NCBI RefSeq assembly: GCF_000003815.2
Contig: NC_049988.1
Location: 7,699,776 to 7,763,775, forward strand
Direction: 5' to 3'
DNA: 64,000 bases
From: Branchiostoma floridae
Taxonomy: Eukaryota; Chordata; Leptocardii; Amphioxiformes; Branchiostomatidae
The notes beneath the pieces were generated by a model, which searched no databases, was not told the DNA's origin, and saw only the letters and a list, made by a program, of their open reading frames with translations. The position numbers were made by a program, and so were the translations under genes. Positions within the stretch are counted from its first letter, which is position 1. Each line of letters begins with the position of its first letter. Below are positions 2,226-64,000 of the stretch, one piece after another.

Positions 2226-2283
2226 GGCCCAATGTGCTGTACGATTACAGTTTTCTTTTACTACAATAACCTGTGGACACCAA

Positions 2284-3262: not shown

Positions 3263-3285
3263 GTTATGATATAACAGTTAATTAA

Positions 3286-10278: not shown

Positions 10279-10530
10279 TCACATGACCACGCAGCTCTTT
10301 GTCCTGTCGCCGCGGAATTCCCTCAAGTCCCTCATTCGACTGTCCGAGCGACTCTGCCTCATTTTCATCGACACGTGTCTCTTCGGCGTGCGCTGTCGCA
10401 AGGCCTTGGTGAGTTTTCCCAGCGCAGCGAGCGTGGCCATCTCAAACACGTCCCTGATGCTCAACTCGGACGTCTTTGCCGAGCACTCCACATACGCCAC
10501 TGCTCCGATCTGCTTTGCCACTGTCATTCC
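10279..10530 (-). CDS. RND: Rnd exon 5 (ECSAK motif, basic tail, CaaX box, stop)
   Basis: 252 nt, coding residues 154-236 and TGA. The acceptor is TACACAG. The protein begins [20 protein letters not shown], then [17 protein letters not shown], then a roughly 40-residue basic tail ending RTKSCVVM. Met at the last position predicts farnesyl rather than geranylgeranyl, as in all vertebrate Rnd proteins. The exon is clearly GC-richer than the flanking intron and UTR. The reading frame stays open for 14 codons into intron 4, so a bare reading-frame scan places the start too far upstream at 10572. Confidence 0.95.
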   Translation of the reverse strand, partial: GMTVAKQIGAVAYVECSAKTSELSIRDVFEMATLAALGKLTKALRQRTPKRHVSMKMRQSRSDSRMRDLREFRGDRTKSCVVM

Positions 10531-13500
10531 CTGTGTACAACACAAAGAAAGATACATTAGAAATCTTAACATTTAGAAATTGTTCAACATCTTACTTCTT
10601 TGACTAAGAGAAATACAGTAAACCTGTACAAGTCACCACCTCTACAAAAGAGCCACCTAAAAATTAACCAATTTTTGGCAATTCATAGAGTCTAATATTA
10701 TATTTCCTATTCACACAACCATTAGGATCCTGCCTATACTGATCTTTGTACATTGTATAGATTGTATGTGTTCCTGTGTATCAAGTTTTTGTCATGTTTG
10801 TTGATAAAGACCACAGGAAGAGTAGCTTCAATGTACTCCATTGTATGCTAATTGTGGATCTTAATAAAGTCAAAGTCAAAGTATACTAGTGACCACCTAT
10901 CCACATAGAATACATGTAAGATACACATGTACAAGATTGGCTACTGTGCTGTATTCACATTTCCTGAAGCAAAATTTCCAATCTCATAGTACACCACAGA
11001 GGTCAGTGCCACCTATAAGTGAAATATGTGGTAGTTAAATGGAACAAGGATTTCTATTTGCCTGGTTTGCCTTCTATCAACCTTGAGAGAGGGTTATCAT
11101 AAAACCTTTCAGTTTGTCTCCTCATTCACCCACGGGTCAGACCACATCAGTAGGAAATCACTGCAATTTACTGTGCACTATTCCATTACATATGGGGCTG
11201 GTATATAGATTTAGTAATCATGGTATACGGCAATGCAATATAAATGCAAACATGGCAAGGTAAGCCTAAAATTTGCCGTCGTATTGTTTCTACTGTACTA
11301 TAAGTATAAGTTACATGATATTATATGATATTCTAATAGCAAAACAGCCTACTACAGCATAAGTACAACATAAAAGACTACAAGGCTATGAATTTAAATG
11401 CTCTTCTTGTTGCATTACAGAATATAAAGTGAAAATGACATAACCTACATGTATCACATATCATAAATTCTTCGTAGTTTCCTGCCTCGAAGCAGTTTCA
11501 AGAACCCTCAATGGATAAATGTTGTTTCCAGCCAATGTTTTGTGCTTTATTGTTAACACTATGCAAAATGACTGTCTTATCATTTATGCTGGCATACTGT
11601 AAGATTTGTCATTTTCACTGGCACTCATCTTACAATAGAATGGCTTTACTTCGTGATAGAAAGGGAAAGGAGTACAGTAGTAATGTAATGGAGGAACATA
11701 CAAAATTCAAAAGGTTACAATAGTAAAACTTGCAAAAATAAAACCACTGCAAATATTTGAAGATTTAGAGTGACACAAGAAACATAACCATTACATATTT
11801 ACAAATTCCAAGAAGACGAAAGGTAACCGCATAAAGGTCACCCTAGGTGAGCATACATGACTCATAAGTTTCTTCTGAAATCTAGAAGGACCATCACCTC
11901 CCTAACCATAGGAAGTGTATATGCCAAAGCTCCAGCCAATCTTCAAATCAGCGATGTATGATATACGACCTTGGGCCTGGCCGCGTGACCTTGGCAGGCC
12001 AAGACTGCTGCTTGAAGGCCCGTAATAAACTTGAGAGACCTGAGGAGAAGTTATGGGGTGGCTGGCAGGTTATTGGGTGCTTCCCCCTCACCATGGATCA
12101 CAATTAGATTTGTCTTCATTGAGACCATGGTCCAATGATTTTTTATTACTTCTTTCGGAATTTATTCATTTTGGGAGAATTCTGAATAGAAAATTTGGTT
12201 ATACATGAAATTCAAGTGCAGTGCTTGAACAGACGTAGACATAAGCAGAATGTTGGCATACAGATTTTGATCCCTTATTGATAACTTACAGTTGGTTGTC
12301 CAATCTTACATCATCGCTATTTCAAAGGTAACGCTAGTTCACCTTTATCCACGGGGTAACCTACACCTGTTCTTTTTTTAAAAACTTGGTATTTAGGGAT
12401 ATCAAGTTGTTGGATGGATGGTTTTAAATAGCAATATTTTCCAAATATTGCAGTTTGAAACCACCATTTGTCAACTTAAATACAAAATAGGACACAGGCT
12501 ACTACCCTAGATATAATGGTGAACTAGCGTTACATATTATTATACAGAGCAAAACTGTACATTTCTACCTTTCTTAAATTATTCAGAACAACAGAGTTTG
12601 CATACATTACCTGAAATGTCACATCTGATTGTTATGTTACAGTTTTAAAGGTTACTGTTATAAAAAAAAGTTATGTATTACAGAGGCATTAACATCTTGG
12701 GCTATTTTTATGATTATTGCTGCCTTGAATTGCCTTGTGATGATGACTGAAAACAATTTTGACAAAGTACCATGAAACATATCATAAAATCAATGTATAT
12801 TTCTTCCAAAACATCTGTGTTCTACACCCTTACTTAACACATACTGATTCGGATTTCCTATAAACAACTGACACATAATTAGAAAATTGTTGAAATCCCC
12901 ACAGATGCCAAATAGTAAATTGCCAGACTGTTCAGTAATCTACTATCCATTATCCAATATTTGTTATGTATATGTTCAAAAGAATAAAACAATCCATTTT
13001 GCATCAGTTTCAATAAAAAATGTCATTTTCTACACTAATGAAAAACATTAAACAAAATCCTGAGAGTGGTCTGACAGCCTTGGGAAACAGATAAACCTGA
13101 AAATTGGACGATCGATTGAGCTGGTGCTCATTAAAATTCACTTTCCCTTTGGGTCTGCAAAACTTTTATTATTCAATTTATTGCACTGGACTGTACTGCT
13201 TCACAAAGTAATACTTCCTCGAGTCGAGATGCAATATTGTCCAGACTTCTGAAGAAACTTCTAACAGTCAAGCTTTAACTTCTACTAAAACTTTCTACCA
13301 CAAATCTTAATCCTGAAAATACTACCCTGAAGTTACATTGAACAATCAACTGTGCCATCTGCATTTTCCTCATTACTGAAAATAGCTGAAACAACCCAAA
13401 GGCCAGTACTTTATTGGAAGTGTGGGAGAACTGGAACAGATAACGACTGTTATGTGTGTGTGCAAAGCAATGTAAGGGAGGCACTCTTCTAACCCTGACC

Positions 13501-16500
13501 TTGAAATCTCCATTGCTCATTACTCACGATCAATACTTCAGCTTAGCTACAGTTCAGCTTTTGAAATCTCTAAATGGAAGGCTCAGCTCCGTATATTCCT
13601 CAAAATCAATATGTCACAAATGTACATTGCAATAATTGCCTAGCAATTCTCCAAAATTTTGGATACTACAATTGTGCTTGGTACTTTGGTTATCACGTCC
13701 AGTACCGGGTTACTAAAATTGTGGTAATCCAACAATGCTGATCAAACAAAAATATTCCTATCTTCTCATAAATGAGACTGGAGACTAGTTACAAGAAATT
13801 GAAATATTGTTTGCTCTATACCCTTCTTTATATTCTAAATTGTACCTTACCAAACCTCTCTTGTCTATCTTACAAATGTACAAATGTAGTTGCCCACTAC
13901 TGGTACTCTTTCATTTTCGTATCCTACTAGAAAATGGTACATGCCGTCATGAAAGGCTTTTCAATTTCATACAACCCTGAGGGAATGGCCCAACCTCAAA
14001 ATGACTGGTTCTAAATCTTATTCATATATCAGTTTCTCCTCGCACTAAATCCCGCGGGGCAAGCCACCGTTTTATTGCCTGAGACAATATGGCAGGCGAG
14101 ATAGGGCGCTCTCTCGGTTCAATGATCCGGAGATATATCCCGCTTAGTACCAGGTGCCATTAAGGGTGATTTATCTAATCATAATCCAGGCATGCGAGCG
14201 GCTCTTCCAACAAAACTGTTGCATACGAAAGCTGGAGTGCAGACAGCAATTTGCGATAATTGCTCCATTCCCTGTTATGGGCAGTGATACAGCAACACCA
14301 CACTCATATAATAACAAAATTGATCAAAAGCTGCTTCACATGTGAATCGCAAACTGGAAAAATGGTGGGCTTGCACAATAACGCAACCATTTGATCCTAG
14401 CTTTGGAGACAATCTCAGAGTTGATGTATAAGGCCGCTTTACTGCTGCTAAATTGAACGGGCGTTATCAAAGCGAAACGTTATTGGTGACCGCTTGAATG
14501 TGAATCAGGCTCCAGATACGGGTATAAAACGGCACTCAACTGCCGTTCAGTTTTCGACATTAGCACTTCTTTCTCAGAAGGGTCCAAATAACTGGAGACA
14601 ATGAAAGTTTCAACAGTACAATTTTGCTGACTTTTCTGGGCCATCGCACACTGTGTGATATGCAGTTATGAGTTTGGCCATCTTTGTTCTCATATATTTC
14701 TCGCTATTTCCAAAACCTATAACAGTTTTTCATTTGGCAGAGTCACAAATGGTACCGGGAATCGTGCCATGTTTTGATCTCAAGGGAGAAGAGGGTCAAA
14801 ATCTTCCCGAGTGATTCAAATTCTAACATGCTATACAACTTTCTAGCCAGGGGCCATTTCAAAAGTCCCCAAAATCTTGACCAAACTTTATTTGCTAGCT
14901 TCAACACTGTCCATGATTTGTTTGAGAGACAGACTCCACTGTTTATGTGTGACCTGGTGTTGTTAGGAAAGGCATGCTCTATAAAGCACACTTGATGAAT
15001 TACAAATTACTCCATTGGCAGTCAATCACCTTGCTTAATCAGTTGATTACAGGAGGCATATTTACGTTCATCGACATGTGTTCAAACAGAGTGATAAATC
15101 GATGGTTGGTGAGCCACCCTCTCCATACCAATTAGAAGTATTGGTACAAAACCTTTTTTTCTTATTGGACCGGTCCAGAAAAAACGGACCTGCAAAAAAT
15201 CAGTGGACCGGGCTTTGCACCGATTAAAGATGGACAGATCATACCGGCAGGCATTCACATGTTTTGGGGGCTTACTGGTCCACAAGAGCGAAGCAGAGGA
15301 GAGTTGATTCTCATTTTTACAGTCAAACTTGGTCTAAGTTAACAGGGGCAGTAGGGTTCTTTCCACGCCAGTGGAAGTCGGACACCAAATTCCTTTGTAA
15401 TGAAATGGAAGATTGTTTTGAGTATCATTCATTCAAAAGTTTAACAGACAATCAGGTCCAGGTTCAAGTGTGGGCCTGGACTTTGTGCTCTGGACCTGGA
15501 CCGTTCCTGTACCTGCATTTTCTGTACTGGTACCCAACCCTAATACCAATCATTGGATCTTCTGTACAATACTTGGACATTTGATGGTAGATAGGTACTG
15601 CGGGTTACTACTAGTGGACTAGCTCCCTGCTGTGGAGGAAACTCCTACCTTACCGAAAACTGTTCCCTACTCTACTCTTAATTGCTTGCACAACTGGGTG
15701 GCCCAAGGGCTATAGACACAGAGATGGGTAACACCCTATACACCAAAAGGTGTAGAAAGGACTTTGGCATTTTAAAACTAAGGTTACGTTACAGTTGGTT
15801 ACTGCTCAGTGCATGGTAAGGAACATTCGTTGATGACTGACTAATAAATGTGATGGCTCATTACAATGTGATTTCACCTCTTCCATGGTTAGTAGAAGCT
15901 CAAAATTGCTACCAGTATATACATTATGTTTTTATTGTTCCTCACTTCTGGGCAAACATATGAACAAACTAACAAAAAGACAGTTGCTGTTGTCACCTTC
16001 TACACAACAGATAACAGCACCTTGCAGAGCACCATTCTTCAGACAGTTCTCAGGGAAATGTTTTACTATTACATTTTTCACCAGATGTTTCAGATGTGCT
16101 TCTCCTGGGTTTTGCATTGATTAATGCGTCCACCCCAGTTTGAAAAATGGCAAACGTTAAGTGTTGTCATTTATAGCACTCCCGGGGGAATGCAGTCCTC
16201 CGTCTAAATGAGCAGTCGGAATAACTTTCCCCGGCGAGAAGTGGGCAATCCAGGTAGGCACGGACAGTAGCGAGTTATCGTTCTACCAGAACGCCAGACT
16301 CGGCGACTCCAGCGGGCCATTACTGTCTTCCGGAGCCACGCTGCCATGTCAGCACGGCGACTACAAATGCACCGTCACACTTTTATGGTGCACTAAAGTT
16401 AATTGAGGAGCGCAGGCTTATCATTACTCACGAAAGGACAGGAAAAAAGGCTAACTTCTATCCAGGGTATTATCCAAGCAGATGCTAGGAAGGCTGACTG

Positions 16501-19500
16501 TAATGTGGTTTTTTCTGTTCTCTGCCTACTGTTACCAAATGTATTGCACTCCCATATTATCCAACTACAGTATGGGTGCAATTTCCAAACCCAAAGATAC
16601 TGTTTTCCATTGGTAGGAATCTCGCCGCCTGTCTTCTGACAATGCTATCATCAGTTTTCTTGTTCATTTGAATGCATATTGCCAGAGCAACTTTCCAGAA
16701 GTATTATACCAACCTTTTTTCAATAGTTTTTATCTATAGGCATTATATAGATACTAGGTGTTTTGGTGTATTTTATGTCATTCTGTGGCAGCATTTGATT
16801 GAGCCATGTGTCTGATACACAAATAAATAGATCAAATCAAGTATTCTGACTAATCAGTTGTTACCCCACCCTACATTATGTGATATTCACACTGTGTGAA
16901 CGTTATAATGGACAAAAGAGACGTGCCATTTATGATGGATAAAATCTAGTACACCACTTATCCCCCAATTTCACCTACTTCCAAAGCCATTCCCATGCAG
17001 AGGCTATAACCTAAATATACTCTGATACAATGAGATAGAAGACATTTATTCGACATTTGGGAAAGACTGCTCTGGTACTTAGCACCCCTTAAGGATCCAT
17101 CCGTCATCAGTAATTGCTTACGTGCATCTTCAAGACATCTTTGTCCAAGAAGTATATCATGTATAAGTGTCTAAGGTGCTAATTTCTTTTCTGGGTTTGA
17201 GCGATGTGATGCTTTGTATCAGCCTAATTAGTTGAAATGATGAAGACTTTGTAAGCTTGGAATGTAGAATCTGTCACTAATGATGACTTGGTTGTTTTAG
17301 AGCCTTCTTAAAGGTACGAATCATTTGTTACCCATACAATGTATTATTGAAGTGTGTGGGCTGACTGTGCTCGATTAAGTTGACAGTCAAGTAAACTTAT
17401 GACACTCTCTCAATTTCTATATTAGTTTCACTTCTGAATTTCTGTGTAACATCGATTGAACACATCTAGGAGTAGCACTGTACAGGCTTTTCATCTGTAC
17501 AATGCTACAGACTGCGGTATTGATGTCAGAGTCAGTGAAAGAACTTTAAATTTGACAGCTGTGACAGAAATTCACCATTACAGAGGGGTGGTCTATCAAA
17601 TTTTACATAGGATTTTCAACTGTCTGCTTCAGCCTACTAGTAACCCATTACAGTAACCCACCAATATTTACTATGATATTAAGTATCATTCAAGAATCTA
17701 GGGAAAGGTTGTAGCTTGACTAAATCAAGATTCTGGAAGCCCTTCCATCAGTCAGGAAGACCAATGAGGCCCTGGCAGCAAGAGACTGTTCAACACAGGC
17801 TACAAAAAGTTGCACTACAGTCAAACCTGTACAAGTGACCACCTTTACATAAGGGCCACCAGGCCAATGTAACCATATATTTCTGGTGTTCCCTTTGAAA
17901 GTTTGTTCACATTGACACAAGCATTAGACTCCTGTCCATGGCAACCACCTGTCCACATTGACCAAATTTTCTTGGCCCCCTGAATGGTCTTCTTGGGCAG
18001 TTCTGATTGTACTAAAGATACACACAAAAGATACACACCTGTTCATGACTGACAGGACTCCTCCCCACAATGGCCAGGTCTGTCACGGTCTTCAAGTCTT
18101 GTCTCAAGTCTGCCTTACAGCCAACCAACAGGATAGGTGCACTGGGGCAGTATTCTCTGACTTCTGGGTGCCACTGGAGGATAGATACAGTTCAAAAGCG
18201 AAGTGTTAATCTCACTGTCGCTGTCTTCGACACTTTATTACAGTGTTCTAACCAGCCTGACATTTTTTTCTGTCCCCTGGATTTTGAATTCCTGTCAAGC
18301 TCCAGAGGCCTCCAAGTGACAGTCCTAGTGGGTCTGGGAAAATTTGAAGTCTGAAACCCTCTGAATCACTATTTCCTGCATTTTGAGGGGCAAATTTTGC
18401 TGGTAGAGTAGACTCAGCTTGCTTCAATCACATCTATTCGAATTTCTGGAGATCTTTGCAAAATTTTTAATTTCTTTAATATCTTTACATCCCGATTTTT
18501 GTCCGTCACAGAGAACGGAATGGGCAAAATTTTTGTCCATCACCGTCAAAGGACGGAAGGACAGATGCTGGTTAGAACCCTGCATCATCATCTTCCATGT
18601 TGGAGACTTGAAGTGCCATCAGTACAAGCAAACTTCTGCTGTCAGAACGTATTGATTTTGTTTTCTTCAGTCTGTAACCTTATCTATGCTAAAGTAGACA
18701 CTTGACACAGCATACATGTATGTATTGATTATGTAGTTTGGCTGCACATAGATAGCTAGATCTTCTGCAAGTGACATTTAGAAAAAGGCAACTGAAATAA
18801 ATATGAAGTTGCGATAAAAGAAATTGTGCTGACCTTTTTGACCACTCCATCTAGAGATTCGGGGGTTCCGATGTCAAAACACGCTAGGATGACGTTACTG
18901 TCGGGATACGATAGGGGGCGCACGTTGTCATAGGCAGTTTGTCCTGCAGAGAAACATAAACATAAACATGCATTCAGATTAATGATGTCAATAAAAGTAC
19001 ATTTGTATGTATATAAGTATGGAACTCAGGTATCTGATTTCTGAATAAAAACAAGGATATTTCCACCTAAACCATAAAACACTGTCACTCTCCCTGTTGC
19101 ATACATCTGCAACTACACGTATGCTTTTATTGCGTATTCATCAACTTAATTTGTATGCATGCTGAAGTAGAAAACGCTCAAACACCCAAGGCCAACATAC
19201 TTTCCTAACCGTTTTACAAACCAAGCAACAGAGGCAACCATCCGACAAACCATCGCTGCTGAAAGCATAACCTTGTTGGAGGTAAAACTCAAGATACAGC
19301 AGAGATAAACCTGGCCTATCACATCTTCCATCACACCCCTTACTGCCATGCCAGCAGTATTCCAAGCATGACTTACATAAGTTACAACCCAGAAAGGCTG
19401 CTACCAACTTTGATCCCAGGCACCACTGATGTAGAATAGATAACATCCCTTCTATTGCGCACCAACAAACGGCTTGACTGTAATATGGGTGGAAGTACAC

Positions 19501-43500: not shown

Positions 43501-46500
43501 AATATTTGAAAGAATTTTTTTTAAACTCCACCAAACTAATGACTGGAAAGTATGGACTTGTCTAAAAGATTGCAGACAACAGTCCACTTTTTTTATGTGT
43601 GGCAAAGTTGAGAGAATCCAAATGGAGTTAAGTGTAATCGTTAGACTTTACTACACAAAGCACCTGTTGAAATGACGCATTTGACCAATACACACGTGTA
43701 GACTCACTCCAATAGAGTGGCTGTCCACTAGTGCAATGAACAAACCAAAAAGCCTAACTTGTGGTTTCAAGCCCTGTATGGGAACCTGTGCCAAAATCTT
43801 CCCTTACGAAACAATAACAACCTGAAGGGTCATCTGTATAATACAGGGGTCACTCTTGTTGTTGTTTCCCTGCAGATAACAACAATGCATCTGTTGTTCC
43901 TGCACGTTTGTTACCTGGAGGTCAGGAATAACATGCCCAGCACGGCACCACTTTTTGTACCAACACTTCTGGCGTTACCTGTTGTGCTGGTTGTGATAGG
44001 GAAGACACCCCTGCTTATTGTTGGTGCAATGTTGTGTAAACATGCCGTACATAGTCACCTGTCTCCTGTCTATTCACCGAGAGACTCTTCGTGTAATTAC
44101 GCGACACGCAACAGTCTTCCTAAACGCAAAGCGCCCAGCGTCCGCCCTTCCTGTATGAACATCCTATGTTTATCTACAGCCCTGCCTTTTCCTATACGTA
44201 GAAGTCAACTGTGTAACTGTGGCATTGTCTAAGGTGATCGAAAATTCTACTTTTTACAAAAAATCATTGTTCACAGTGTTACTGTCCATTCAGGCGGACA
44301 TAACGAAGTGTTTGCCTGCGGGGAAACGTGGTGAATCAGCAAACTTGCCTCTATTCATTGTCTTGTGTCTATTTGCATAAAAGGGCACGGCCAAAGTCAA
44401 CCTTGTATCAATACAGGCACAAAGATCAATCCGACCTGAATCCGGCTGCTGCAGGTTTGAAGATTTCGCCACAGCAATGCAGAGATTTCCCACACAACCC
44501 CTAAATATAATCAATAACTGTAGGTGTAGGTGTAGGTGTAACTTGTACATGTAACTCTCTGCCCACTGTTTGTTGAAGTTTTATGTAGGGACTAACCATT
44601 AAATGCTCTAAATCACTTTGAGAGAATGAATTTTAGCCCATCTTATTAACCATCTCGATGGTTCATATGACTGCAGTTCAAAACGTATTGTGAAGAGATA
44701 TTCTTTTAAAATAGTTTTAAGAGAACATGTTATGAAAAAATATGTTATGTTCATAACATGTTCTCCAGGGTTACTTATATTCATAAGTTTACATTACAGC
44801 TCATAGTCATACATTGTTCTGTCCTATTTGCATTGTTATCACAACAAATATTAATATATCCTGACACACCCAGAGACACGACCTTGTATAGATCCACAAA
44901 GCGGAACAACAACAACACAATTTACGAAACACAAATAAAGCCTGGCTGAAAATCAGGTTAGGGGAAGTGATTCGGAATCGCTTAGCCAGAAGCCTTCTGA
45001 AACGAGGGTTAATTATCAAAACTCATGCACCAAGGGTGTATTGACCCCCAGCAAATAGAACCTAGACCTGTTGGGACACCAGCAACTAAAACCCTCCCTT
45101 CTGGGGAGGAAATGTAATTAAGCTGACATTGTCTGGGGTGCCAGACATATTGATCTGTGTAGTGTGGTTGGTGAGATGGGCTGGAGGAAGATTAGCTCAC
45201 CTGATGTGTCCCATAAACTCAGCTCCACTCTCTGCTTCTCCACCTCAAACCCTGCCTTGTAGTTCTCGAACACTGTCGGGACATATTCCTACAGAACAGG
45301 AAAACGTCATATGTATCAGTAACTGTTCAATAAGCTATTTTGCTAGCTGTAATTGAATAGAGATGTACTGTACTTACCATGTTACTGAATTACCGGTACC
45401 TTCCATGTTATAGGTAACTTAGGTATATAAGAAGAAGATTATTCAATTTCAGGATAACATCATTAGTATCTGAGTATCGTTAGTCTAATTTTTGCAGACA
45501 AATTGGACAATCAGCCACAAAGGATTAGATTTCCATTCAGTTTATTCATTTCGTCTTTTATTCATTAACTTGCTTATTCATAGAGATCTATTTCATTTAA
45601 CCATTCATTCAAATGATTCATTCTTATTCATATACATCGTTTATTCAACAACATCCCAATCACTTTATAGACCGTATGAAACTAATCAAACGGAAGAATT
45701 CTTGCTTGTATCTGAGACAAGAAACAAAGCTTCACTCTTCCTGTGCTCAAAGTGCTAAGGCTCCTTGTCAGATACTTCGATGCCATACAATCTCCAAGAC
45801 ACCATCTTCCAAACCTAATCAAACATGGGTGGGCTCGACCCAAGGTCGACCTCCTGGGAAGTGGTGCCTAACAGTTGGTCCTGACATTCCCCTGCACTCT
45901 GGTAGTTATTACAACAGTCGCCCAAGCCTCTTTCCTATATAAACATGGTCTAGTACAAGTATGTAAGGATGTGGTCTGGGGCAAGCAAGGTAAAACAGAA
46001 ATTCATTTGTGAAATTTGGTTGTACCATTCTTGCAAATGGTATTGATGATTTCTTTCGAAAAGTTAATGAAAAATTTATATATTAGTAAAAGGTTTCAAA
46101 ATTATTCTCGTGTTTTAAGTTGTCTACTTACTGTAGGAAATGGTTGCATCTAGGTTTGTATACCCATTTTAAAGGAGATAACATGATTCTTTTAATACAT
46201 GTAATACTGTTGAATCGTTGACAATGTGACTGGCAAGATGTGCACGGCGAGAAATTGATATGGTCTATCTTTATCCTGCAATATTCAGAAGCCATCATCT
46301 GCAGTTTGTTCGGAGTTGCCCTTCTGCCCTCCCTTCATACTATTTCCTGGAATAGCCCCTTACATCTTGGCTCCAATTCAGGGCACAGATCCTAGGATTC
46401 CCCGTGGCTCAAATGGGATGTAAAATTTCAGCACGTGCCGGCCATCCTCAATCATGACAATCCCATCTCAATACTAGCCGGGACATCGCTAAAGAGTCAG

Positions 46501-49500: not shown

Positions 49501-52337
49501 ATGCAGGTTCTTTTCTCTATCATGGTAATGTGATCTGTTTCGGGTGTGAGAGAGAAAATCCCCCAAAACAAACTCGCAAACAGAGGTGGACACCCTTTTC
49601 AGCTGATGGTGTCAGATCTAAATAGAGCATCCACAGCTAGTCTGCCATCTTACTGGCTTTCTTATCTTGTAAGTAAGACTTATAAACATGGTTACACTTA
49701 CAGTAGTAGTGCTTTCAAAATTTTTCTCCAAATTGGTATTTAATTTTTCTTGATACTTGCTTACTTGCTTGATACTACCAACTAAATTGAGTTCTGGTAC
49801 AGATGTACAAGCAATTAAGTCAACACAAGGACTTTTTTTCACATTACCTTTACTTTAGGTGTATATTGTATTAGTGATCTTTTAAATTACTAGTACAAAA
49901 TACAGAGAAAAACTGTGCATGTGTCTTGAACTTTGTTTTCCTTGCAAATCTAGTTGTACATTGTCTCTTTCCGACATCCCTGAGGATCTGCATGGGGTTT
50001 CCCACTCCTAACAAAGGTGTATGCTGAATTCAGAAGAACCTTCTACAATTCAAGCTAATATATATGAAGGGAGCCAGTTACCCAAAACTTGGTCACTTTG
50101 CTACAACTTTCCCTACAAATTTCGGGGAAAACAAATATGCTGCCTACACATTATAGCAAAAGGGAATGCACGCCCTCATTTTCCACCACATTCCTGATAG
50201 CAAACCCCTATGGACCACAAAATATGTGGCACATTTCTCCTCAGGTTTCAAACTCCTTCAGGAAGATGAGTGGAAAATGTCAGCATTTCATGCCACACAA
50301 ACCAAGGACGCTGATGTAACGTCCTTGCACAAACATAGGAGATTCAATACACAAAGTGTTAAACTTTCTTGAGTAGGATGTTTTAGGTCCGGAAGTCTTG
50401 TAGGTGGCACAAGAGGCTCTGGAAGGTGTAGGATGTAAAAGGGTCAGACCTGAAGGTGAACTAACACGTGCTAGAGACCACCTTGGGGTCAGGGGGCATG
50501 GGTTCTATTCCCAGTCTCCAATTCTGCTCAAACAACTGGTAGGGAATACTAGTATGCTGGTATGGTGGGAGTATGGGTTTTCAAAATGTGAACTAATATG
50601 ATACACAAGCTAGTGTGACCAATGAACTGTTCTGCCACTTTCAAGATGAAGTTGTAAGCTTTGACATGTATTGAATTTGAAACCTACATTTCGTATCAGT
50701 CTAGCACCTATGTGAAGTTGTATCTCTTAAATTTGTCAACATTTTCAGTTCAACGCTTAATTCTGTTGGACAAAATACACAAAACTTTCAATAACTCTTA
50801 TAATAATTGCTGCAAGAATGTATTCCATGTAGTGGTCAGCATATACACTTGTTTCACCTGTGTACCTTGCATCACACAATCTTAGTTTTATGGACAAAAT
50901 CAGTTTGGATATGGATTTTGGCCTACCTCCAGTACATTGGAAACCTAGGTCCATTCCACAAAATTGACAATTACATGCGACAGTGCCCGCACACTTGTAA
51001 CAAGTTGTTGTAAATCCAATATTCACTGCAAGCCATTCAAGTGTGAGACTCACACATTGACTGAGAATATGACACGGGAGTGACGGGACTGACAAAAAAT
51101 TAGCACATATGTCATAATACATTCTATCCCTGGATATGATAATTTTTCTTTCCATTTCAAATAAGATTTAGGGTGGGTCTTCAAAAAATGTCACCCAATA
51201 AACAAGTCTGTCTGGCCTTTAAATGATATCATAACTTATGTTATGACATCATTTCTATTTCAGAACAGTCAAAGCTATTCATAATGGCACAATCTACCAC
51301 ATATAACAAGATTATATCTAGATTGTGTCCTTGCAAGCAGTTTACTTATCTCCTTGCAAGACAGCTCGAACTTGACATGAACAAGACAACTTTCTGTAGA
51401 CTACTGGCACCGGATAGTCTGAACAACTATCTTCTTGTCTACCACCGCATTGGCCGGGTGCCATGAATTGTATGCATAACAGTGAACACACAGTCCCACC
51501 CTAGCACCACAGGAAACTAGTGCAGACTTTTATCATGAAAATTTTACTTCAAAGCAAAAACATTCAGTTCCTTGTTGTCTTGCCTTGTCATAGAATTTTA
51601 GAAAGCCATTGGTATGAATGAGGAAAAGTGCATTTCAACTTTCAAAGACACTTTGAACATTGTGGCTATCTGCCAAGGTGGTAAGAATATTTGTTATTGT
51701 TGGTGCTTAGTGATGAGGACATCCGCATACTTTTTTTTATCGATTGACATTTAGACTATGTTTGTTGTCCATTTGCTGTATTATAGGCCAATCCTTAATC
51801 AGTATTTGAAAATCATGTAGAGATGGAAAAATGTGCGTTGTCATTTAATTATAGATATTGATAGCTGTCAGTTGCTCATTGGTTGATATGATAATTATGA
51901 TGGACAGCTAGTTCTGGACTATGAAAGGTCAGCATAAGGTATCAATATAGAGACAACTAACGTTACATTTAGTCTACAACGACAAAAAGTAAAAGTGCAA
52001 GTAACGTTACATTACTAATAGTAAATTGATATTTTCTCTATTTACTTTCTGATTCACTCACCAACTGTGAGGGTGAAAGGTTTAAGAAATACAATTATGA
52101 TTAGCCAAAACTTCTTAATGTAATTTTCACTTGTAGCAGTTTTCTTCTATGCTTCAATTCTTCATACTTGACTACGCGCTAAGTAGATTACACAAACACC
52201 AAACAACCTACCTCCAAGAACTTGTCCTTTGCGAAGACTTGCAGTAAGGCCGTCTTGCCCGCTCTCTCGTCTCCTACCACGATAAGCTTACACCTACAGA
52301 CGTTGCCACCACTACTGCTTCCTCCTCCTCCTTCCAT
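10279..52337 (-). CDS. RND: Rnd-family atypical Rho GTPase, complete five-exon coding sequence
   Basis: The exons 52337-52212, 45288-45201, 18943-18834, 18173-18039 and 10530-10279 (minus strand) join to 711 nt, or 236 codons plus TGA. Vertebrate Rnd proteins are about 227-244 residues. Visible motifs: P-loop GDERAGKT (residues 22-29), switch I VPTVFENY (45-52), DTSGQ (69-73), GCKAD (126-130, base binding), ECSAK (168-172), a basic Arg/Lys/Ser-rich tail (about 190-232) and C-terminal CVVM (233-236), predicted to be farnesylated. Exon positions and phases follow what I recall of vertebrate Rnd3. Rnd proteins sit at the plasma membrane, bind GTP, antagonise RhoA/ROCK signalling through p190RhoGAP and plexins, and shape the actin cytoskeleton and axons. 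The Ser before the CaaX Cys (Ser232) matches the Rnd3 position used for 14-3-3 binding. Probably the single pre-duplication orthologue of RND1/2/3 (inference). Family assignment is very secure. Confidence 0.95.
10615..10934 (+). repeat. repeat of the CAAACCTGTACAAGTGACCACC family, interrupted
   Basis: CAGTAAACCTGTACAAGTCA at 10616 and the following accession-like pattern (GCCACC, ATTAACCA, TTCACACAACCATTAGGATC) match the copy at 17817-18011. The unit is interrupted by a 141-bp retroelement tail at 10741-10881, after which the homology resumes (CCACCTATCCACAT). The right end is not well defined. Confidence 0.6.
10741..10881 (+). mobile_element. 5'-truncated LINE tail (CR1/L2-like) nested in another repeat
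   Basis: A 141-bp insertion ending AATAAAGTCAAAGTCAAAG, a poly(A)-like signal followed by short tandem 3' units as in CR1/L2 retrotransposons. It is flanked on both sides by TATACT (10735-10740 and 10882-10887), consistent with a 6-bp target-site duplication. Confidence 0.6.
12328..12533. mobile_element. fully palindromic MITE (GTAACGCTAGTTCACC family)
   Basis: The ends are GTAACGCTAGTTCACC in opposite orientations, and complementarity continues with mismatches to the centre. The centre is GCAATATTT-TCC-AAATATTGC (12431-12451). The unit of about 206 bp can fold into one long hairpin. No coding capacity. It lies in Rnd intron 4. Confidence 0.8.
14482..14552 (+). promoter_or_regulatory. isolated core promoter: inverted CCAAT, TATA box, initiator
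   Basis: ATTGG (14482-14486), TATAAAA (14523-14529) and TCAGTT (14547-14552) are spaced as in a strong Pol II core promoter. The T of TATA is 26 nt before the A of the putative initiator, and CCAAT lies near -65. It lies in Rnd intron 4 on the opposite strand to Rnd. Transcription is not shown. Confidence 0.4.
14601..14995 (+). pseudogene. possible secreted-peptide gene or pseudogene downstream of the intronic TATA promoter
   Basis: The first ATG after the putative initiator (14601, A at -3, 5' leader about 52 nt) reads MKVSTVQFC, then TGA. It continues open in the same frame as [19 protein letters not shown] and on to a stop at 14775-14777. The start resembles a signal peptide (basic residue, then hydrophobic core and Cys/Ala) broken by one TGA at codon 10. 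A different frame (14774-14995) is then open for 73 codons and ends [10 protein letters not shown] recognise neither part. It could be a decayed small secreted-protein gene, a nine-residue peptide, or chance; splicing could also join the pieces. Confidence 0.25.
17817..18011 (+). mobile_element. TIR element of the CAAACCTGTACAAGTGACCACC family
   Basis: A 195-bp unit. The left end ACAGTCAAACCTGTACAAGT is mirrored, imperfectly (about 20 of 27 positions), by the right end, which reads TACAATCAGAACTGCCCAAG on the other strand. Non-coding. It ends 27 nt from the exon 4 donor of Rnd. The same repeat occurs at 10615-10934. Confidence 0.6.
18039..18173 (-). CDS. RND: Rnd exon 4 (base-binding motif and Rho insert)
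   Basis: 135 nt, phase 0 on both sides, coding residues 109-153. The protein begins [20 protein letters not shown], followed by ADLRQDL, and ends SPVSHEQ. It holds the GCKAD guanine-specificity motif and the Rho-type insert region. The acceptor is CTCCAG. The donor is CAG/GTGTGT, and the intron then runs through a doubled AAGATACACAC-like stretch into a terminal-inverted-repeat element that ends 27 nt from the splice site. Confidence 0.95.
18174..18833 (-). other. Rnd intron 3 (660 bp)
   Basis: GT..AG intron, phase 0, far shorter than the others. More than half (18241-18582) is a hAT-like terminal-inverted-repeat element, so the ancestral intron was probably about 320 bp. Confidence 0.85.
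18241..18582. mobile_element. hAT-like non-autonomous element in Rnd intron 3
   Basis: A 342-bp unit with 16-bp terminal inverted repeats, CAGTGTTCTAACCAGC at the left and CAGGGTTCTAACCAGC (minus strand) at the right, matching at 15 of 16. CAG-starting ends of this type are usual for hAT elements. No transposase frame is present and no clear 8-bp target duplication is visible, so the superfamily is an inference. Confidence 0.6.
18834..18943 (-). CDS. RND: Rnd exon 3 (switch II)
   Basis: 110 nt, coding residues 72-108. The protein begins [20 protein letters not shown] and ends LDGVVKK. With exon 2 it forms DTSG-Q-T-A-Y-D. Vertebrate Rnd1-3 read DTSGS at this point, so Gln73 (equivalent of RhoA Gln63) is retained here while the preceding Ala is already Ser. 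The acceptor is CTGCAG and the donor AAG/GTCAGC (phase 0 out). The [12 protein letters not shown] block is the strongest Rnd signature in the gene. Confidence 0.95.
20694..20767. mobile_element. MITE of the GCCTGGGTACC family, copy 2 (short form)
   Basis: A 74-bp inverted-repeat unit in Rnd intron 2. The left end GCCTGGGAACCATCCGGA faces the right end TCGGATGGTACCCAGGC. The AGTAGTTCGCTC inner sequence is shared with the copy at 2284-2462, which shows common origin; the centre is much shorter. Confidence 0.75.
21698..21930 (+). repeat. SINE-like unit with A/B-box-like motifs
   Basis: TGGTGCAAGCTG (21698-21709) and GGATTCAAGCC (21771-21781) resemble internal Pol III A and B boxes, though the spacing is longer than in tRNAs. 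The following CATGTTAAAGAACCCAGCAC and AAGAGCAGGGATGACATGGT recur in part at about 5730-5765 (AAGAGTAGGGGTGATCTAGT). Family not identified. Confidence 0.35.
22140..22350. promoter_or_regulatory. candidate intronic enhancer around a perfect RFX X-box
   Basis: GTTGCCATGGAAAC (22210-22223) fits the palindromic RFX X-box consensus. Within 150 bp there are a TGACCTTG ERR/SF1-type site (about 22163), AACAAAG (SOX-like), CAGGTG and CAGCTG E-boxes. It lies in Rnd intron 2. The clustering is seen; the function is inferred. Confidence 0.35.
24672..25399. mobile_element. PIF/Harbinger-like element with ~50-bp TIRs and a decayed transposase start
   Basis: A 728-bp unit bounded by CCCCATTCACACTCAGAAAA in opposite orientations. 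The inverted similarity extends over roughly 50 bp (ACGATTCGGATAAAACA...). Inside, a plus-strand frame starts [17 protein letters not shown] followed by an Arg-rich stretch. In another frame, from 25024, the sequence reads [18 protein letters not shown], a stop, then [11 protein letters not shown]. This ERSxDWWNNIV pattern resembles the N-terminal part of Harbinger transposases as I recall them. The frames are shifted and stop-interrupted and no catalytic domain is present, so this is a deletion derivative. Target-site duplication not clear. Confidence 0.6.
24851..25120 (+). pseudogene. decayed transposase N-terminus inside the Harbinger-like element
   Basis: An 89-codon frame begins ATGGCGGGAATC with a hydrophobic then Arg-rich N-terminus ([14 protein letters not shown]). 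The more recognisable Trp-rich block (residues encoded at 25024-25110) is in a different frame and is broken by TGA and TAA codons. At least one frameshift separates the two parts. Not expected to be functional. Confidence 0.4.
28741..28898 (+). mobile_element. CTAGYCTG-ended MITE family, copy A (with internal duplication)
   Basis: Begins GTCTGTGTAATGCAAACTCT and ends TTAATCAGGCTAG. The last segment, GCGGGCTGCTATAAGCGAGA to AATCAGGCTAG, is present twice in tandem (units ending near 28845 and 28898). Related copies lie at 31666-31763 (minus) and 33136-33223 (plus). Non-coding. Confidence 0.75.
31487..31516. repeat. CAAGGAG/TTTTATC mini-hairpin
   Basis: 14-bp arms (AAGGAGGTTTTATC and its complement with one mismatch) around a TT centre. 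Closely related in sequence to the hairpin at 58425-58456. Confidence 0.75.
31666..31763 (-). mobile_element. CTAGYCTG-ended MITE family, copy B
   Basis: A minus-strand copy of the family. On the plus strand it begins CTAGCCTGATTAACTCTCGC and ends GTGTTACACAGACTA. A single copy of the 3' segment is present, so this is the simple form. Confidence 0.75.
33136..33223 (+). mobile_element. CTAGYCTG-ended MITE family, copy C (internally deleted)
   Basis: Begins ACTAGTCTGTGTAACACAAA and ends GCGAGATTTAATCAGGC. It lacks part of the middle compared with copies A and B. Confidence 0.7.
35462..35475. promoter_or_regulatory. RFX X-box-like site
   Basis: GTTTCCTTGGAGAC, one mismatch from GTTNCC-N2-GGNAAC, with another half-site-like TAGCAACC about 23 bp downstream. 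Confidence 0.25.
36466..36784. mobile_element. second hAT-like element, diverged
   Basis: The left end TAGGGCTCTACCCAAC and right end CAGGGCTCTAGCCCGC (minus strand) match at 12 of 16 positions. TTTTTGTCCATCA and CCGTCA-type words are shared with the element at 18241-18582, suggesting related families. About 319 bp, non-coding, in Rnd intron 2. Confidence 0.5.
36935..37035 (+). mobile_element. retroelement tail, GCAATTAGCCCTCGGGCA family, copy 3
   Basis: GCAATTAGCCCTCGGGCATG then AACTTGCAAATAAACTT, the best-preserved of the three copies here. The 5' limit is arbitrary. Confidence 0.55.
42768..42891 (+). repeat. diverged tandem duplication, ~70-bp period
   Basis: AATATGAATGGTAT...ATAATTCATGAGTGACAT...AGACTGG (42768-42820) recurs as AATATGAATGGTAT...ATAATTCATGAGTAACAT...AGACAGG (42838-42891). 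Confidence 0.7.
44721..44765. repeat. 16-bp-arm hairpin with 13-nt loop
   Basis: GAGAACATGTTATGAA (44721-44736) and its exact complement TTCATAACATGTTCTC (44750-44765). The loop AAAATATGTTATG repeats part of the arm. Confidence 0.8.
45201..45288 (-). CDS. RND: Rnd exon 2 (switch I)
   Basis: 88 nt, coding residues 43-71 plus the first base of codon 72. The protein begins [20 protein letters not shown] and ends VELSLWDTS, covering switch I (Thr47 is the magnesium-coordinating Thr), beta-2, beta-3 and the start of DxxG. The acceptor is CTGTAG and the donor TCAG/GTGAGC. It starts in phase 0 and leaves one base, which exon 3 completes as Gly. This exon is separated from exon 3 by about 26 kb. Confidence 0.95.
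45533..45650 (+). repeat. TTCATT/TTATTCA low-complexity tract
   Basis: Cryptic repetition of ATTCATT-type words (ttcattt, ttattcat, ccattcattc) over about 118 bp with no exact unit. Old, diverged simple repeat. Confidence 0.6.
47555..47599. repeat. 45-bp near-perfect hairpin
   Basis: 22-bp arms around a single central C. The only non-Watson-Crick pair would be a G-U in RNA. Left arm ATTGAAGTCGATATTCCATA...; right arm ...TATGGAATATTGACTTCAAT. Confidence 0.85.
48564..48617 (+). mobile_element. partial copy of ACTGTAAATGCA-family element
   Basis: ACTGTATACACATTTATTCT followed by TGCAGGGATTGAATTTTGCG aligns with the left end of the element at 8485-8652. Only this end is clear; the rest has diverged or is missing. 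Confidence 0.5.
50404..50520 (+). repeat. possible tRNA-derived repeat remnant
   Basis: TGGCACAAGAGG near 50405 (A-box-like) and GGTTCTATTCC at 50501-50511 (B-box-like). No cloverleaf can be drawn and the boxes are too far apart for a tRNA gene. Confidence 0.25.
52212..52337 (-). CDS. RND: Rnd exon 1 (start codon, P-loop)
   Basis: Codes residues 1-42. A short Gly/Ser-rich leader ([13 protein letters not shown]) is followed by [19 protein letters not shown] and VFAKDKFLE. The donor follows GAG directly, with intron start GTAGGT (phase 0). The ATG at 52337 has A at -3 and G at +4, a strong initiation context, and gives a leader close in length to other Rnd proteins. The reading frame stays open upstream to another ATG at 52571, which would add 78 residues. 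That longer form is not favoured because the added part has no Rnd-like sequence. The P-loop has Glu-Arg where typical Rho proteins have Gly-Ala; departure from Gly at this site is a hallmark of GTPase-deficient Rnd proteins. Confidence 0.95.

Positions 52338-56089: not shown

Positions 56090-56092
<3 letters not shown>

Positions 56093-56147
<55 letters not shown>
56093..56147 (+). repeat. (TC)27 microsatellite with pyrimidine-rich flank
   Basis: A perfect TC dinucleotide run of about 55 bp, followed by imperfect CT-rich sequence to about 56216. Confidence 0.98.
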
Positions 56148-56150
<3 letters not shown>

Positions 56151-58424: not shown

Positions 58425-58456
58425 CAAGGAGCTTTTATCTTGATAAAAGATCCTTG
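58425..58456. repeat. CAAGGAG/TTTTATC mini-hairpin
   Basis: 15-bp arms (CAAGGAGCTTTTATC and its complement with one mismatch) around a TT centre. Same family as 31487-31516. Confidence 0.75.
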
Positions 58457-60749
58457 GGTATAACAGACATTGAAGAAATAAAGGAGAATAATTTTTCAGA
58501 TGAGCACTGAACGGCCTTAAGTGAAGTCCTCAGACGTACTACTATATTGTACATTTGTAAACAAAGCGTTTATTCTCACTGTCACTCGGTGTATAATCGA
58601 CACTTGTCGCGATTTTCCACTTCGATCTGCCACAAATCAATTAAAAGCAATTGATATCCACGCGTTAATCAAAAAGCCTTCTGTCCACACGAAAGGGCCA
58701 AACAATATTCCCTTCACAAATGGAAAATAATTTCCCATGGTAGCAAAAATTTACTTCTCTAAGCTTGCTATGTGGCTGTGTCTCGGCGGCAGAAACTAGT
58801 TCCATCACAATTTGACCGCAATTCAATTGTAGACTCTTCAGAATATACATTTTTGGGCTGAAACATAACGGAAAATGTTGTTTGGAATATCATTCGAAAG
58901 TGCCGTAAACTAAACATTTGTATGGTGGCCTAAGTACTTACAAGGAACCTCCTTGCTATATGACAAACGTCCTGTCGTTACATTGACGAACGACCCCACA
59001 ACGCGAAAAAAAGCCAGCTGTCTGTAGACTTTCCAATTTCTCAGCTGTCTGACACCTTTTTCGAAACTTTCTCTCTGACACATCTGCACAGATGGAAAAC
59101 CTAACAACAGCAGTCATTTCAAGTTCACCTGCTTTGGGGATATAACTGTTAACGGCAATGCTTCTTTTGGCAAGTCCCAGCGATTCCATGTACGGGTCCT
59201 ACAGACTTGCACCTGTTCAGGGGCGATCCTAGCGGGACCTGCCCGCCATGACCACACGCTACGGTGTTTATTCACTCTCGCTGATTGTCACGCCTGCAAC
59301 TGTGTTGTTTTTGGTACCAGCAGAAACTCCCATCGTCTGCAACACTTGTTCCCACACAGCTGTCGTAGGGAGTGATCTATGTGGGGCTTAGAAGAAAAAG
59401 CGACAACTGGGGAGTGATGTACAACTGTGTAAACCGTTACAAAATCACAGGCTTCTGAAAGCCATTGGGGCCTGCTCATCTGTCCTTTTCTAAACAGAAT
59501 TCAACAAATAAAACAGATTCTATCTCGTAAATGGAACATACGTCTCCTTGGTTAAGTTCAAATAGCCCTTTACTGTCAAAAGATAAAGAGTGAATTTTAC
59601 AAGTATTTTATTGGCACGTTTCTGTATCAGTCCAAGCAAAGTATACACCAAGGCAAGTGCTGGAAAACACCGACACGTGTTTCCAGCATGGTCGGCTTGT
59701 GTGGCCATTTTATCTCGGATTTAGACATGGCTTTTCTAAATGCCCATTGGTATTCCCTTCCAGAGCCCGGCGGATCTCCAACAACAAGCAAATCCTTTGC
59801 TTTCTACCCTGTGGAACTTCTTTAGTCTTCAGAGCCACGGCGTCAGAGTTCGGTGTTTTCAAGCTGTTGTCTGCATTGAAACGATTCAACATTAGATAAA
59901 TATTTATTCTAGATACATATTAAAAAACATATTCCATTTCCCATTCAGGAATGGGATAAACAAATGCACAAAAGGTGATGAAACTTCAGATGATAGAGAT
60001 GTGATTCTGATATTACAGTTGAGGACGGCGTAATATTAAGGCAATGTACCCCAGGCGTACAGGTGCAAGGGATTGTTGGAACAGTGCATGGTTTTCACCT
60101 CGCAATCTTTGAACAAATCTGCACTAATTTACAGATGTAGGGTTTAGCTCAGTGTTTTACGCTTGTTTAAATTTAGACTTCTAAGATTTCCCTATCTCGA
60201 CTCTCAGTAGTGGTAGATTTCTCTCACTTTTGAAAGTAGTCAATTTTCTTTCTGAGTCTCCTGTGAGAAATTAAATTTACTAAAAATACGTGCAAAATGC
60301 CACAAAACACTGAGCCAGGCCCTGGATCTTCTTGTAGACTAGGAAAGACGGGGCATCACGGTTTATAACGGGTCGCCGTGGCACGTTAAATGCCCGGGTA
60401 AGTCTCCCATGTCTGTGTTGTGACAGCCTTGTTCTGTGCGAGTCAGGCGAAGCCGGGCAGAAAGCGAGAATTTTTCTGCGCATCTCCGCTTCCGGGACCA
60501 ACCGTTTTGGTGTCACCTATCGGAGGAAGAGAACTATCATTATGAAACTTTTTCTCACGTATGCAAGACCAAAGCAAAGTTTCTGTCATATACAGGTAAA
60601 TTAATAGCTTCATTAACCCTTGCAAAAGATTAAGAATGTAGAAGGCAATGGCAATGCATGTTTTTGTAGGCACGTATCCGTTTGTAAAAATTGTATACAT
60701 TATTATGTACAATTTATTATCATTTATGTTTCTAATCTATCATTAGTTT

Positions 60750-60950
60750 TAGCATCATCATCATCATCATCGTTCGGCTGCAGCGCAGGCGACTGCAAGC
60801 CTTCTAAAGTTCCGCCTATCAGCAGTGAGCTGGCGAAGCTGCCTGGGGGTGATCTGGCCATGATGGTCTCCCATTAGTCGCTGGACGTACTGTAGATGTA
60901 GTTTTAGCATGTACTAGCATGTGTTCCTTATCAAAGAAAGCAATAAATAA
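60750..60950 (+). repeat. GC-rich repeat-like unit after (ATC)n
   Basis: A short (CAT)n run is followed by a GC-rich block (TTCGGCTGCAGCGCAGGCGA, GGGGGTGATCTGGCCATGAT) and then AT-rich sequence with AATAAA near 60945. Composition differs sharply from its flanks. I suspect a dispersed retroelement 3' end but cannot name it. Confidence 0.35.
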
Positions 60951-61153
60951 TATAAAATGTAACCTTTGTAGTTTATCATTGAGACGTGGGTGAATTATTT
61001 CCTTTGATTAATTAGTAAACAAACAAACAAATATTTCAGCAATCAAGTAATGAGGAGACTGTAATCAATAACTGCTTCCAGGTGCCACAAATCCACCTGT
61101 CTGAACACCTGGTCCAGGACACTGTCTTCCCTAATAAGGAGTGGTCTAATTCC

Positions 61154-61167
61154 GTTGCCATGGCAGC
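61154..61167. promoter_or_regulatory. RFX X-box-like site upstream of VAT1
   Basis: GTTGCCATGGCAGC, one mismatch from the palindromic X-box, about 2.5 kb upstream of the VAT1 start. Confidence 0.25.
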
Positions 61168-61559
61168 ATGGCTGTCATGACCGGGTAAGTTCAAAAGTTA
61201 TCCTGAAGGGGTGTGACGGTGGATTTTCCTACGCCTACCAAATTCACGATCAGTTTAACTATTCAAAACTTGTCAGGATAACCTCTTATGCGACCTCCAC
61301 TCCACAAATAAAAACCTGGGCAATGATCCCTTCTCTCTGGGTCAAAAAGTGAAGGACACACAAAAACACCATTGACTGAGACTATTGAACACCACTTCCT
61401 CCGACCGAAATGAGAAATTGAAGAAAGGGGAAATCACATTAATCTTTAGGTTTGAAGAAGGGACATTCTCAACCCCCAGATCGCATTGCGTTGTTACTAG
61501 TACCCTCTAAGCAGAAGTCAGGCTCCGGCTGGTTTTTTTTTTTGGGGGGGGGGGGGGGG

Positions 61560-61671
61560 CGTTTTTAGGCGTTTTTATCGGGCTTTCTATTTTGTACTTG
61601 AAGTTTATAACGCGAGACATCAAGAAAACTGTACAGAATAGAAAACCCGATATAAACGCCTAAAAGACGTT
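61560..61671. repeat. inverted repeat with ~38-bp arms beside poly-T/poly-G
   Basis: The left arm 61560-61597 (CGTTTTTAGGCGTTTTTATC...TTTTGTAC) pairs with the right arm 61631-61670 (GTACAGAATAGAAAACCCGA...) with a few mismatches around a 33-nt loop. A T11 run then G18 precede it (about 61533-61559). Probably a MITE; ends not defined. Confidence 0.65.
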
Positions 61672-63419
61672 TAAAAAAAAGACAGACAGAAGAAGCTGGA
61701 TCGGCGTATCTATAGAGTAATCTCCAAGCAGATGTAAGGGGTCGCGTTGTTCTTTTTATCCGTGTGCTTTGTTGCCGTTGTTCCTCATTAGTTTTTACAC
61801 AAGACGCTCAGTGGAAGGGTTCACGACACAGTCTGATGGACATACAAAACAATTCGAGGCCACACTTCTGCTTTAAGTTTAGATTTAGTGTCAGATAAGA
61901 CTGACACAAGGTAAATAAAAAAGCGATAAGTGACATCAGATCGCCAAGGTCTTCCTATGTCCACTGTCTCGAGGTTAAATGTATCGTTTGCTCGTCCTTG
62001 CTCTGGTCATGCTAGTGTTCTAAACACTGACCTAGGGTCTTAATTCAGTTTAAGGGTCTGTTTGTTTGTTTGGACTCTCAATTTGATAGAACACTTTGCA
62101 TCTAACACGAAGTCCGGCATTTTCAGTACGGTTCGAAATAATATTTTAAGGACAGGTTGCCTACTAGACAACCGAAATCAACAGCTACGTTACTTGTCAC
62201 CAAACTGGGCAAACGGGTATTTTGAATCCTGTTTGTTGTTCGGTAGTGGCGAAAACATCATGATTTCTCTCCCAACATCTGCTTGAAGATTATGACGACA
62301 AGGGATTTCGACAGGCACGATTTATAGGTTACACCGCAAATTTACGGATGTTGCAGAAACGTGTATCCAATTCATCTGCCATGGCTGGCGATCAACCAAA
62401 ACCACTTCACCCAGCAGATCTGTATCAAAACAAACAGGGGAGGCTTTCCCTTTCAATGAACCTGTCTGTCGTTAGCTTGTGTCGGTAATTTCCGTGGGCA
62501 ATTGGTTCACGGCCGATGCGCCTGGTTTATCAAAAGCGGGATATTATGATCCTACTAATTTTCCGGCTTGTTGAAAATGGCCGTAAATTGATCGGCGAAG
62601 CTTGGTGTTGAGTTCCAACCGCGCCGTAAATCCTTCGCTAAAAGTGTGAATGAATCAAGATTACAAATATAGCAGTTGACAGACTGAGATCATGAGTTAT
62701 AAATAACGCAGACAGTATAGATAGGGTTACGGTTGGACCAGACATCGTGTTACGTGTTACTGTGAACGTTTAGAGCATAACGCGTAGGCATCCAAACACA
62801 TATGTTGTAAGAATTTGAGCCTAACGCTAAGTGTTGGAATTTGCTGTGAGATAGAGGGGTCGGCGTGGATCTTTTGCGTTTTCGAGACTTTGCTGTCATA
62901 TTTGGCTGGAGTAAAACTACTTTCGTCCGCCCATTCAAGCCGACCGTCAATGAACTGTGAGAAGCCAGGCTATTTTTGTCCACGGTGGGGACAAACATAC
63001 TGTTTTGGGACCTGGGGTCCTGTCTTATATATCCATCTCCAACACACTAATAGATATCCTAACTGCAACATTACGTCCCTCATAATGGAATTTTATTCAA
63101 TTTCCTACAGAAAATAGTACCACTAGTTGTCAGTCTTCAGCATTGCATTGGACAGGTCTTTTATCTTATAAGCCTAACGTCCTAGATTTTTTTTTGCATC
63201 TAGCTAGCTATCGAACAGCCAGTTATGATTGGAGCACGAAAAATACAATCGAGCAAAAGAAGCTAATGTATAATTCTATTGTAACGTTATAATTTATATG
63301 GGTTTCCAATCATACTGCAGTACAAAGAAAGGCGATCAATCAAGATGAGGTAAGAAGCTAAAAAACGGTATGCCAAAATTTTCAGGTTTCGCTCTGAGAG
63401 TAACGTTAATCCTACAAAA

Positions 63420-63657
63420 GGGTTAACGTTACACAGACCAATGAGTTAATAAAAGCTCGTTGAATAGTCTCCACGATTTTTGTTCAACGCAGACTACATT
63501 TTCTGCCCCACGTGACTGTAGCCAGCAATCCCATCGACCAATCAACAATGATCGTTCCCCTAATTTTGGCAGTTTTTCGGGGTCAGCAGGGGTGAGAGGT
63601 CATAGGTTAGCTTGTTGGCTGTACTTGGCTGTAGTAGTGAGAGTGAGTCCTGACAAG
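63420..63657 (+). promoter_or_regulatory. VAT1 proximal promoter and 5' UTR region
   Basis: Upstream of the VAT1 ATG are CCAAT boxes at about 63437 and 63538-63542 and an E-box CACGTG at 63509-63514 (CCACGTGAC, a USF/TFE3-type site). Sequence becomes GC-rich close to the ATG and no TATA box is evident. The transcription start cannot be placed. Confidence 0.45.
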
Positions 63658-64000
63658 ATGGCGGAAGGCGGAGATGCAGCAACGGTCGCGCACGAGGCGG
63701 GCAACGCCGTACAGGAGACCCCGAAGGCCGAGCCTGAGAAGGCGGCGGCGCCCGCGGAGCCAGCCCCTCCGGCGGAGCCTGCAGAGCCCACGGTGCGAAC
63801 CATCGTGTTGACGGGCCATGGCGGCTACGACAAGCTGTCGGTACAGCAGAAGCCGCAGCCCAAGGCGGGGAAAGGCGAAGTGCTGGTCCGAGTCAAGGCG
63901 GCCGGACTCAACTTCTCCGAGCTGATGGTCAGGCAGGGTCTGCACGACCGCATGACCAAGCCACCCGTCGTCCTGGGCATGGAGGCCGCAGGAGTCATCG
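63658..64000 (+). CDS. VAT1: VAT1-type synaptic vesicle membrane protein homologue, first exon (runs off window)
   Basis: The ATG at 63658 opens a frame with no stop to the window end (114 codons). The first 45 or so residues are an Ala/Glu/Pro-rich leader (MAEGGDAATVAHEAG...). From there the sequence reads TVRTIVLTGHGGYDKLSVQQ, then GEVLVRVKAAGLNFSELMVR, QGLHDRMTKPPVVLGMEAAG. This is the N-terminal GroES-like domain of VAT1/VAT1L, zinc-independent members of the medium-chain dehydrogenase/reductase (quinone oxidoreductase) family linked to vesicle and mitochondrial membranes and NADPH binding. The nucleotide-binding domain lies beyond the window. Very high local GC and CpG content marks a CpG-rich first exon. 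The start has AAG before ATG and G at +4. VAT1 versus the paralogue VAT1L cannot be separated from this part; the gene probably predates their split. Confidence 0.93.
   Translation, partial: MAEGGDAATVAHEAGNAVQETPKAEPEKAAAPAEPAPPAEPAEPTVRTIVLTGHGGYDKLSVQQKPQPKAGKGEVLVRVKAAGLNFSELMVRQGLHDRMTKPPVVLGMEAAGVI

Follow-up and report, generated by a model that had tools for sequence, protein, structure and literature searches.

Head-to-head Rnd and VAT1-type genes in amphioxus mirror the human RND2–VAT1 neighbours and may descend from an ancestral pair

An Rnd gene on the minus strand and a VAT1-type gene on the plus strand lie head to head in the 64,000-nucleotide stretch of Branchiostoma floridae DNA analysed here (the window), with 11,321 bp between their ATGs (52337 and 63658). 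The exons of both genes were located by tblastn, with human proteins as queries (Table 1). Coordinates, orientation and distance agree exactly with the preliminary description of this DNA. We postulate, with a probability of roughly 60%, that the two genes represent an ancestral head-to-head pair that was passively inherited, with a separate promoter for each gene, and kept at one duplicated vertebrate locus. The preliminary description, which presupposes that the two partners are orthologous to their human namesakes, had further taken the conserved arrangement to suggest common regulation of the two genes or a regulatory block in the intervening DNA. The observation itself proves right and the orthology has good support, while the regulatory reading is currently the weaker one. 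No report of a Rnd–VAT1 pair in an invertebrate was found in the literature searched, and PMC4042849 and PMC2976758 gave no passage on this pair.

Table 1 Features of the Rnd–VAT1 region, in positions of the window.
Feature	Position	Strand	Remarks
Rnd coding exon 5 (C-terminal extension, CVVM CAAX box, stop)	10279..10530	-	stop codon 10281-10279
Rnd coding exon 4	18039..18173	-	tblastn, splice sites
Rnd coding exon 3	18834..18943	-	tblastn, splice sites, Pfam Ras
Rnd coding exon 2 (switch I, ...LWDTSG)	45201..45288	-	
Two TAACGTTA copies (51958, 52002)	51957..52010		about 200-255 bp into Rnd intron 1
Rnd coding exon 1 (P-loop, GDERAGKT)	52212..52337	-	ATG at 52337; donor gtaggt
Interval between start codons	52338..63657		CpG o/e 0.854; without recognised gene
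Three TAACGTTA copies (63282, 63401, 63424)	63281..63432		about 225-380 bp upstream of VAT1 ATG
CACGTG (63509) and CCAAT (63538)	63509..63542	+	within 150 bp upstream of VAT1 ATG
VAT1-type gene, first 114 codons	63658..64000	+	frame open to the end of the window

The rebuilt coding sequence of Rnd consists of five exons and encodes 236 amino acids without an internal stop. Its introns measure 6,923, 26,257, 660 and 7,508 bp, and all four are bounded by GT-AG. Scattered over 28739-33200 in intron 2 are direct and inverted repeats 45-63 bp long (D1, D2, I2-I5), perhaps remnants of small mobile elements. A 43-bp repeat with a short palindrome is found both in this intron (31481-31523) and in the interval between the two genes (58420-58462), the two copies being 86% alike.

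Among the best 60 of 828 matches to solved structures, Rnd scores highest with RND3 (255 bits) and RND1 (232 bits), against at most 218 bits for Rho1/RhoA types. In a tree of seven proteins, comprising human sequences and this Rnd as the sole invertebrate member of the family, Rnd joins RND1/2/3 (support 100/99) and falls outside the three human proteins (support 99/98), the position expected of a single pre-duplication gene. Pairwise identity amounts to 58.3% with RND3 (127/218), 55.1% with RND2 (125/227) and 52.3% with RND1 (116/222), and is as high with RHOA (57.7%, 101/175). Since raw identity fails to separate Rnd from RhoA, the placement rests on the scores, the motifs and the small tree. 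The motifs DTSG and VGCK are Rnd-like, as is the C-terminus KSCVVM, which compares with KSCSIM in RND1, KSCNLM in RND2 and KSCTVM in RND3. The scores and the tree argue for a pre-duplication-type RND and support the orthology presupposed for this partner.

Rnd also carries the long C-terminal extension ending in a CAAX box with a terminal Met, a residue that directs farnesylation. Members of the Rnd subfamily are characterised by inhibition of RhoA signalling and by a lack of measurable GTPase activity, a deficiency linked to substitutions at the positions corresponding to G14, A61 and Q63 of RhoA. The alignment places substitutions at two of these three positions (G14 to Glu, A61 to Ser), whereas Gln63, which is Ser in human RND1/2/3, is retained. 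A residue other than glycine at position 14 usually blocks GTP hydrolysis, so that Glu at this position would still be expected to yield a GTP-locked protein despite Gln63. From its sequence, Rnd is thus probably GTP-locked, and the combination of a conserved Gln63 with substituted G14 and A61 possibly marks a halfway stage on the way to losing GTPase activity. For Branchiostoma floridae, the species table of PMC4669188 lists a single BfRnd, which may be the gene seen here. The same table enters Rnd for three bivalves and is blank for sea urchin and Ciona, and a passage of PMC7600811 reports a cnidarian Rnd. On these partial sources Rnd extends beyond chordates, so the Rnd–VAT1 pair could predate chordates, or not.

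The second partner is represented by its first 114 codons, about 69-73 residues of which can be aligned. The visible part is N-terminal catalytic-domain sequence, and the coenzyme-binding domain falls beyond the window. PMC2976758 gives 37 strictly conserved positions for the coenzyme-binding domain vs 10 for the catalytic domain, and a passage of PMC4042849 unites VAT1L, ZADH2 and VAT1 in one ohnologue family. The exon scores 70.6 bits with VAT1 and 54 bits with VAT1L, against at most 35.8 bits for the remaining 17 of the 20 listed MDR sequences, and it is 52.9% identical to human VAT1 over 70 columns. Eight MDR-type families were returned by NCBIfam for the fragment, all far below their cut-offs. 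The clear score gap identifies the fragment, from about 70 alignable residues, as VAT1/VAT1L-type, and the sequence accordingly places this partner on the VAT1/VAT1L branch, as had been proposed. The shortness of the alignable part leaves some room for another MDR enzyme that is not a VAT1/VAT1L orthologue and whose match to the human pair misleads; in view of the score gap and the identity to human VAT1, we regard such an assignment as very improbable.

In human, RND2 and VAT1 are presumably head to head at 17q21, roughly 3 kb apart. The same two families stand side by side in amphioxus, and the head-to-head orientation is alike if we take the human orientation correctly. The two loci differ in the interval, which is 11.3 kb here against presumably 3 kb in human, and in the position of the Rnd member, the amphioxus protein falling outside RND1/2/3. 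To our knowledge, no such partner accompanies vertebrate RND1, RND3 or VAT1L. The proximity of the human genes to BRCA1, also part of the preliminary description, is borne out by a passage of PMC3207938: a BRCA1 deletion that begins in VAT1 and reaches as far as the NBR1 start includes RND2, pseudo-BRCA1, BRCA1 and NBR2. This implies the order VAT1-RND2-BRCA1, with VAT1 next to RND2.

We postulate that a single pre-duplication Rnd and VAT1 stood head to head in the ancestor and were inherited in this form by vertebrates, where, after the duplications, the pair would have been kept only at RND2-VAT1 beside BRCA1. As neighbours that are not paralogous and that two deeply diverged lineages apparently share, the two genes are comparable to the ancient metazoan microsynteny blocks of PMC8851819; VAT1 has no occurrence in the main text of that paper. 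Alternatively, chance or independent joining on a chromosome of ancient linkage could have produced the matching arrangement. Chromosome-scale linkage in chordates is old, which makes re-joining within a chromosome not negligible, and in the text available from PMC8851819 shuffled genomes still yield 45, 48 or 56 blocks, against 256 new blocks inferred for the bilaterian ancestor. Such an origin would, however, have to reproduce both the identity of the neighbours and their head-to-head orientation, which match here if the human orientation is as we take it, and we consider it improbable.

The VAT1 promoter must lie in the interval between the start codons, and so must that of Rnd if the gene lacks a distant 5' exon. 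The CACGTG and CCAAT elements upstream of VAT1 are promoter-like by consensus. A true bidirectional promoter was rejected, as we take this term to require start sites within about 1 kb; the distance used is that between ATGs rather than transcript starts, and a distant 5' UTR exon is possible. Translated in six frames with stops as X, positions 52340-63660 gave nothing above the curated Pfam cut-offs, and the matches below them (Atrophin-1, E 0.044; DUF3915, 0.46; AvrRpt-cleavage, 0.052) were taken as chance. Neither an Rfam family at gathering thresholds nor, with ARAGORN, a tRNA was found in the whole window.

Pfam likewise found no domain in the 10 kb beyond the Rnd stop codon, one plus frame being covered to 7352 only. 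The scans of this left flank comprised plus frames 1 and 2 over 1-10.5 kb, frame 3 over 3-7352 and the minus frames over 1-9900. For the Rnd region, two of the three minus frames were scanned over 45300-52200 and all three over 10270-19900. Ten of the 25 long ORFs of the window were included as well, the plus strand at 10.5-52.3 kb, the third minus frame at 45300-52200 and most of intron 2 being covered only where these ORFs lie. Across all scans, the sole match above cut-off is Ras, on the exons of Rnd itself; two ORF matches below the cut-offs (Cas5, 0.088; Ferritin-like, 0.28) were taken as chance. As a control, the region of Rnd exons 3-5 was scanned: Ras was recovered twice within a single frame, with exon 3 as the best match and presumably exon 4 as the other, and no match came from the exon 5 frame. 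The scan is therefore moderately sensitive, and a small or fast-evolving exon could escape it. At 4558-4899, a run of 298 N bases, probably an assembly gap, adjoins an 11-copy CTCA microsatellite, and the six long ORFs that overlap the run are probably its artefacts.

The CpG content changes abruptly along the window. The ratio of observed to expected CpG is 0.32 for positions 1-10281 and 0.41 over the Rnd gene, but 0.854 from one start codon to the other, and 11.3-kb windows slid to the left of the interval give 0.35-0.471. The depletion ends sharply at Rnd exon 1, with about 0.3-0.4 to its left and about 0.85 to its right; within the interval, local dips reach about 0.45-0.6. The pattern resembles the trace of gene-body methylation known from invertebrates; it speaks against a vertebrate source and agrees with a cephalochordate one. 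In our preferred reading, passive inheritance, the interval would be unmethylated in the germ line and the Rnd gene body methylated. According to the available text of PMC6292497, nearly all 5mC of amphioxus lies in gene bodies, which makes CpG-rich intergenic DNA ordinary there. The CpG-rich interval was accordingly rejected as a mark of special regulation. The depletion also extends from the Rnd stop codon leftwards to position 1, which suggests either that the 3' UTR is long or that a further transcribed gene lies there.

The 8-mer TAACGTTA, core of the palindrome GTAACGTTAC, occurs nine times in the whole window against 0.60 expected. Seven of these copies fall in 51801-63657 (0.23 expected) and two in 1-51800 (0.37 expected). 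With a score of 17.2 it tops the ranking for 51801-63657, which considered words with at least five copies there and left out those with fewer than three different letters. Copies cluster near both gene starts (Table 1), and these could hint at shared factors; two more (55924 and 57254) lie mid-interval, far from both starts. The motif was chosen after looking. A second palindrome, TACATGTA, occurs 12 times in 1-51800 against 1.29 expected and scores 16.1 against 17.2, and either palindrome may be a general feature of this species. It is conceivable, but in our view doubtful, that shared control from the interval has preserved the head-to-head pair from a time before the vertebrate genome duplications, with the GTAACGTTAC copies just within Rnd and shortly upstream of VAT1 as its common element, and that the pair was kept at one duplicated copy only.

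More broadly, both genes may be served from the interval, by enhancers or by factor sites there, and selection may keep the pair together as a genomic regulatory block or a co-regulated pair. The divergent orientation shared with human RND2-VAT1 (the human orientation being our assumption), the high CpG ratio throughout the interval, and the top rank of TAACGTTA with two copies near Rnd exon 1 and three near the VAT1 ATG are all compatible with such control. On the other side, 11.3 kb makes no bidirectional promoter, CpG-rich intergenic DNA is expected in amphioxus, the motif is a post hoc pick with two copies remote from both starts and a nearly as over-represented rival, and the vertebrate RND1, RND3 and VAT1L, as far as we know, lack such a partner. 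In addition, the described mammalian enhancers of Rnd2 and Rnd3 sit 3' of their genes in the available passages of PMC4319381; for Rnd2 this would place them opposite to VAT1, across the gene, provided that the human orientation is as we take it. The regulatory claim of the preliminary description is hence unsupported, given the length of the interval and the 3' position of these enhancers, and we consider shared cis-regulation rather unlikely, though worth keeping in mind.

Passive inheritance accounts for the observations, except perhaps for the TAACGTTA copies. Rnd and VAT1 would be independent genes, driven by separate promoters at opposite ends of the 11.3-kb interval. As predicted from the sequences, the Rnd product would be a farnesylated protein that is probably GTP-locked and counteracts Rho signalling, and the VAT1 product a medium-chain oxidoreductase-like protein. 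The pair would have persisted since nothing broke the interval, and not through demonstrable shared control.

The CpG depletion that ends at Rnd exon 1 and the over-representation of TAACGTTA in and beside the interval are new observations. If the arrangement is confirmed in other deuterostomes, the BRCA1-adjacent pair would be a relic that predates the vertebrate genome duplications, and the question of why certain genes remain neighbours could be addressed on a simple example. As far as we know, most of the Rnd copies that arose by duplication no longer adjoin VAT1, so that the RND1, RND2 and RND3 loci would allow shared enhancers to be separated from inertia.
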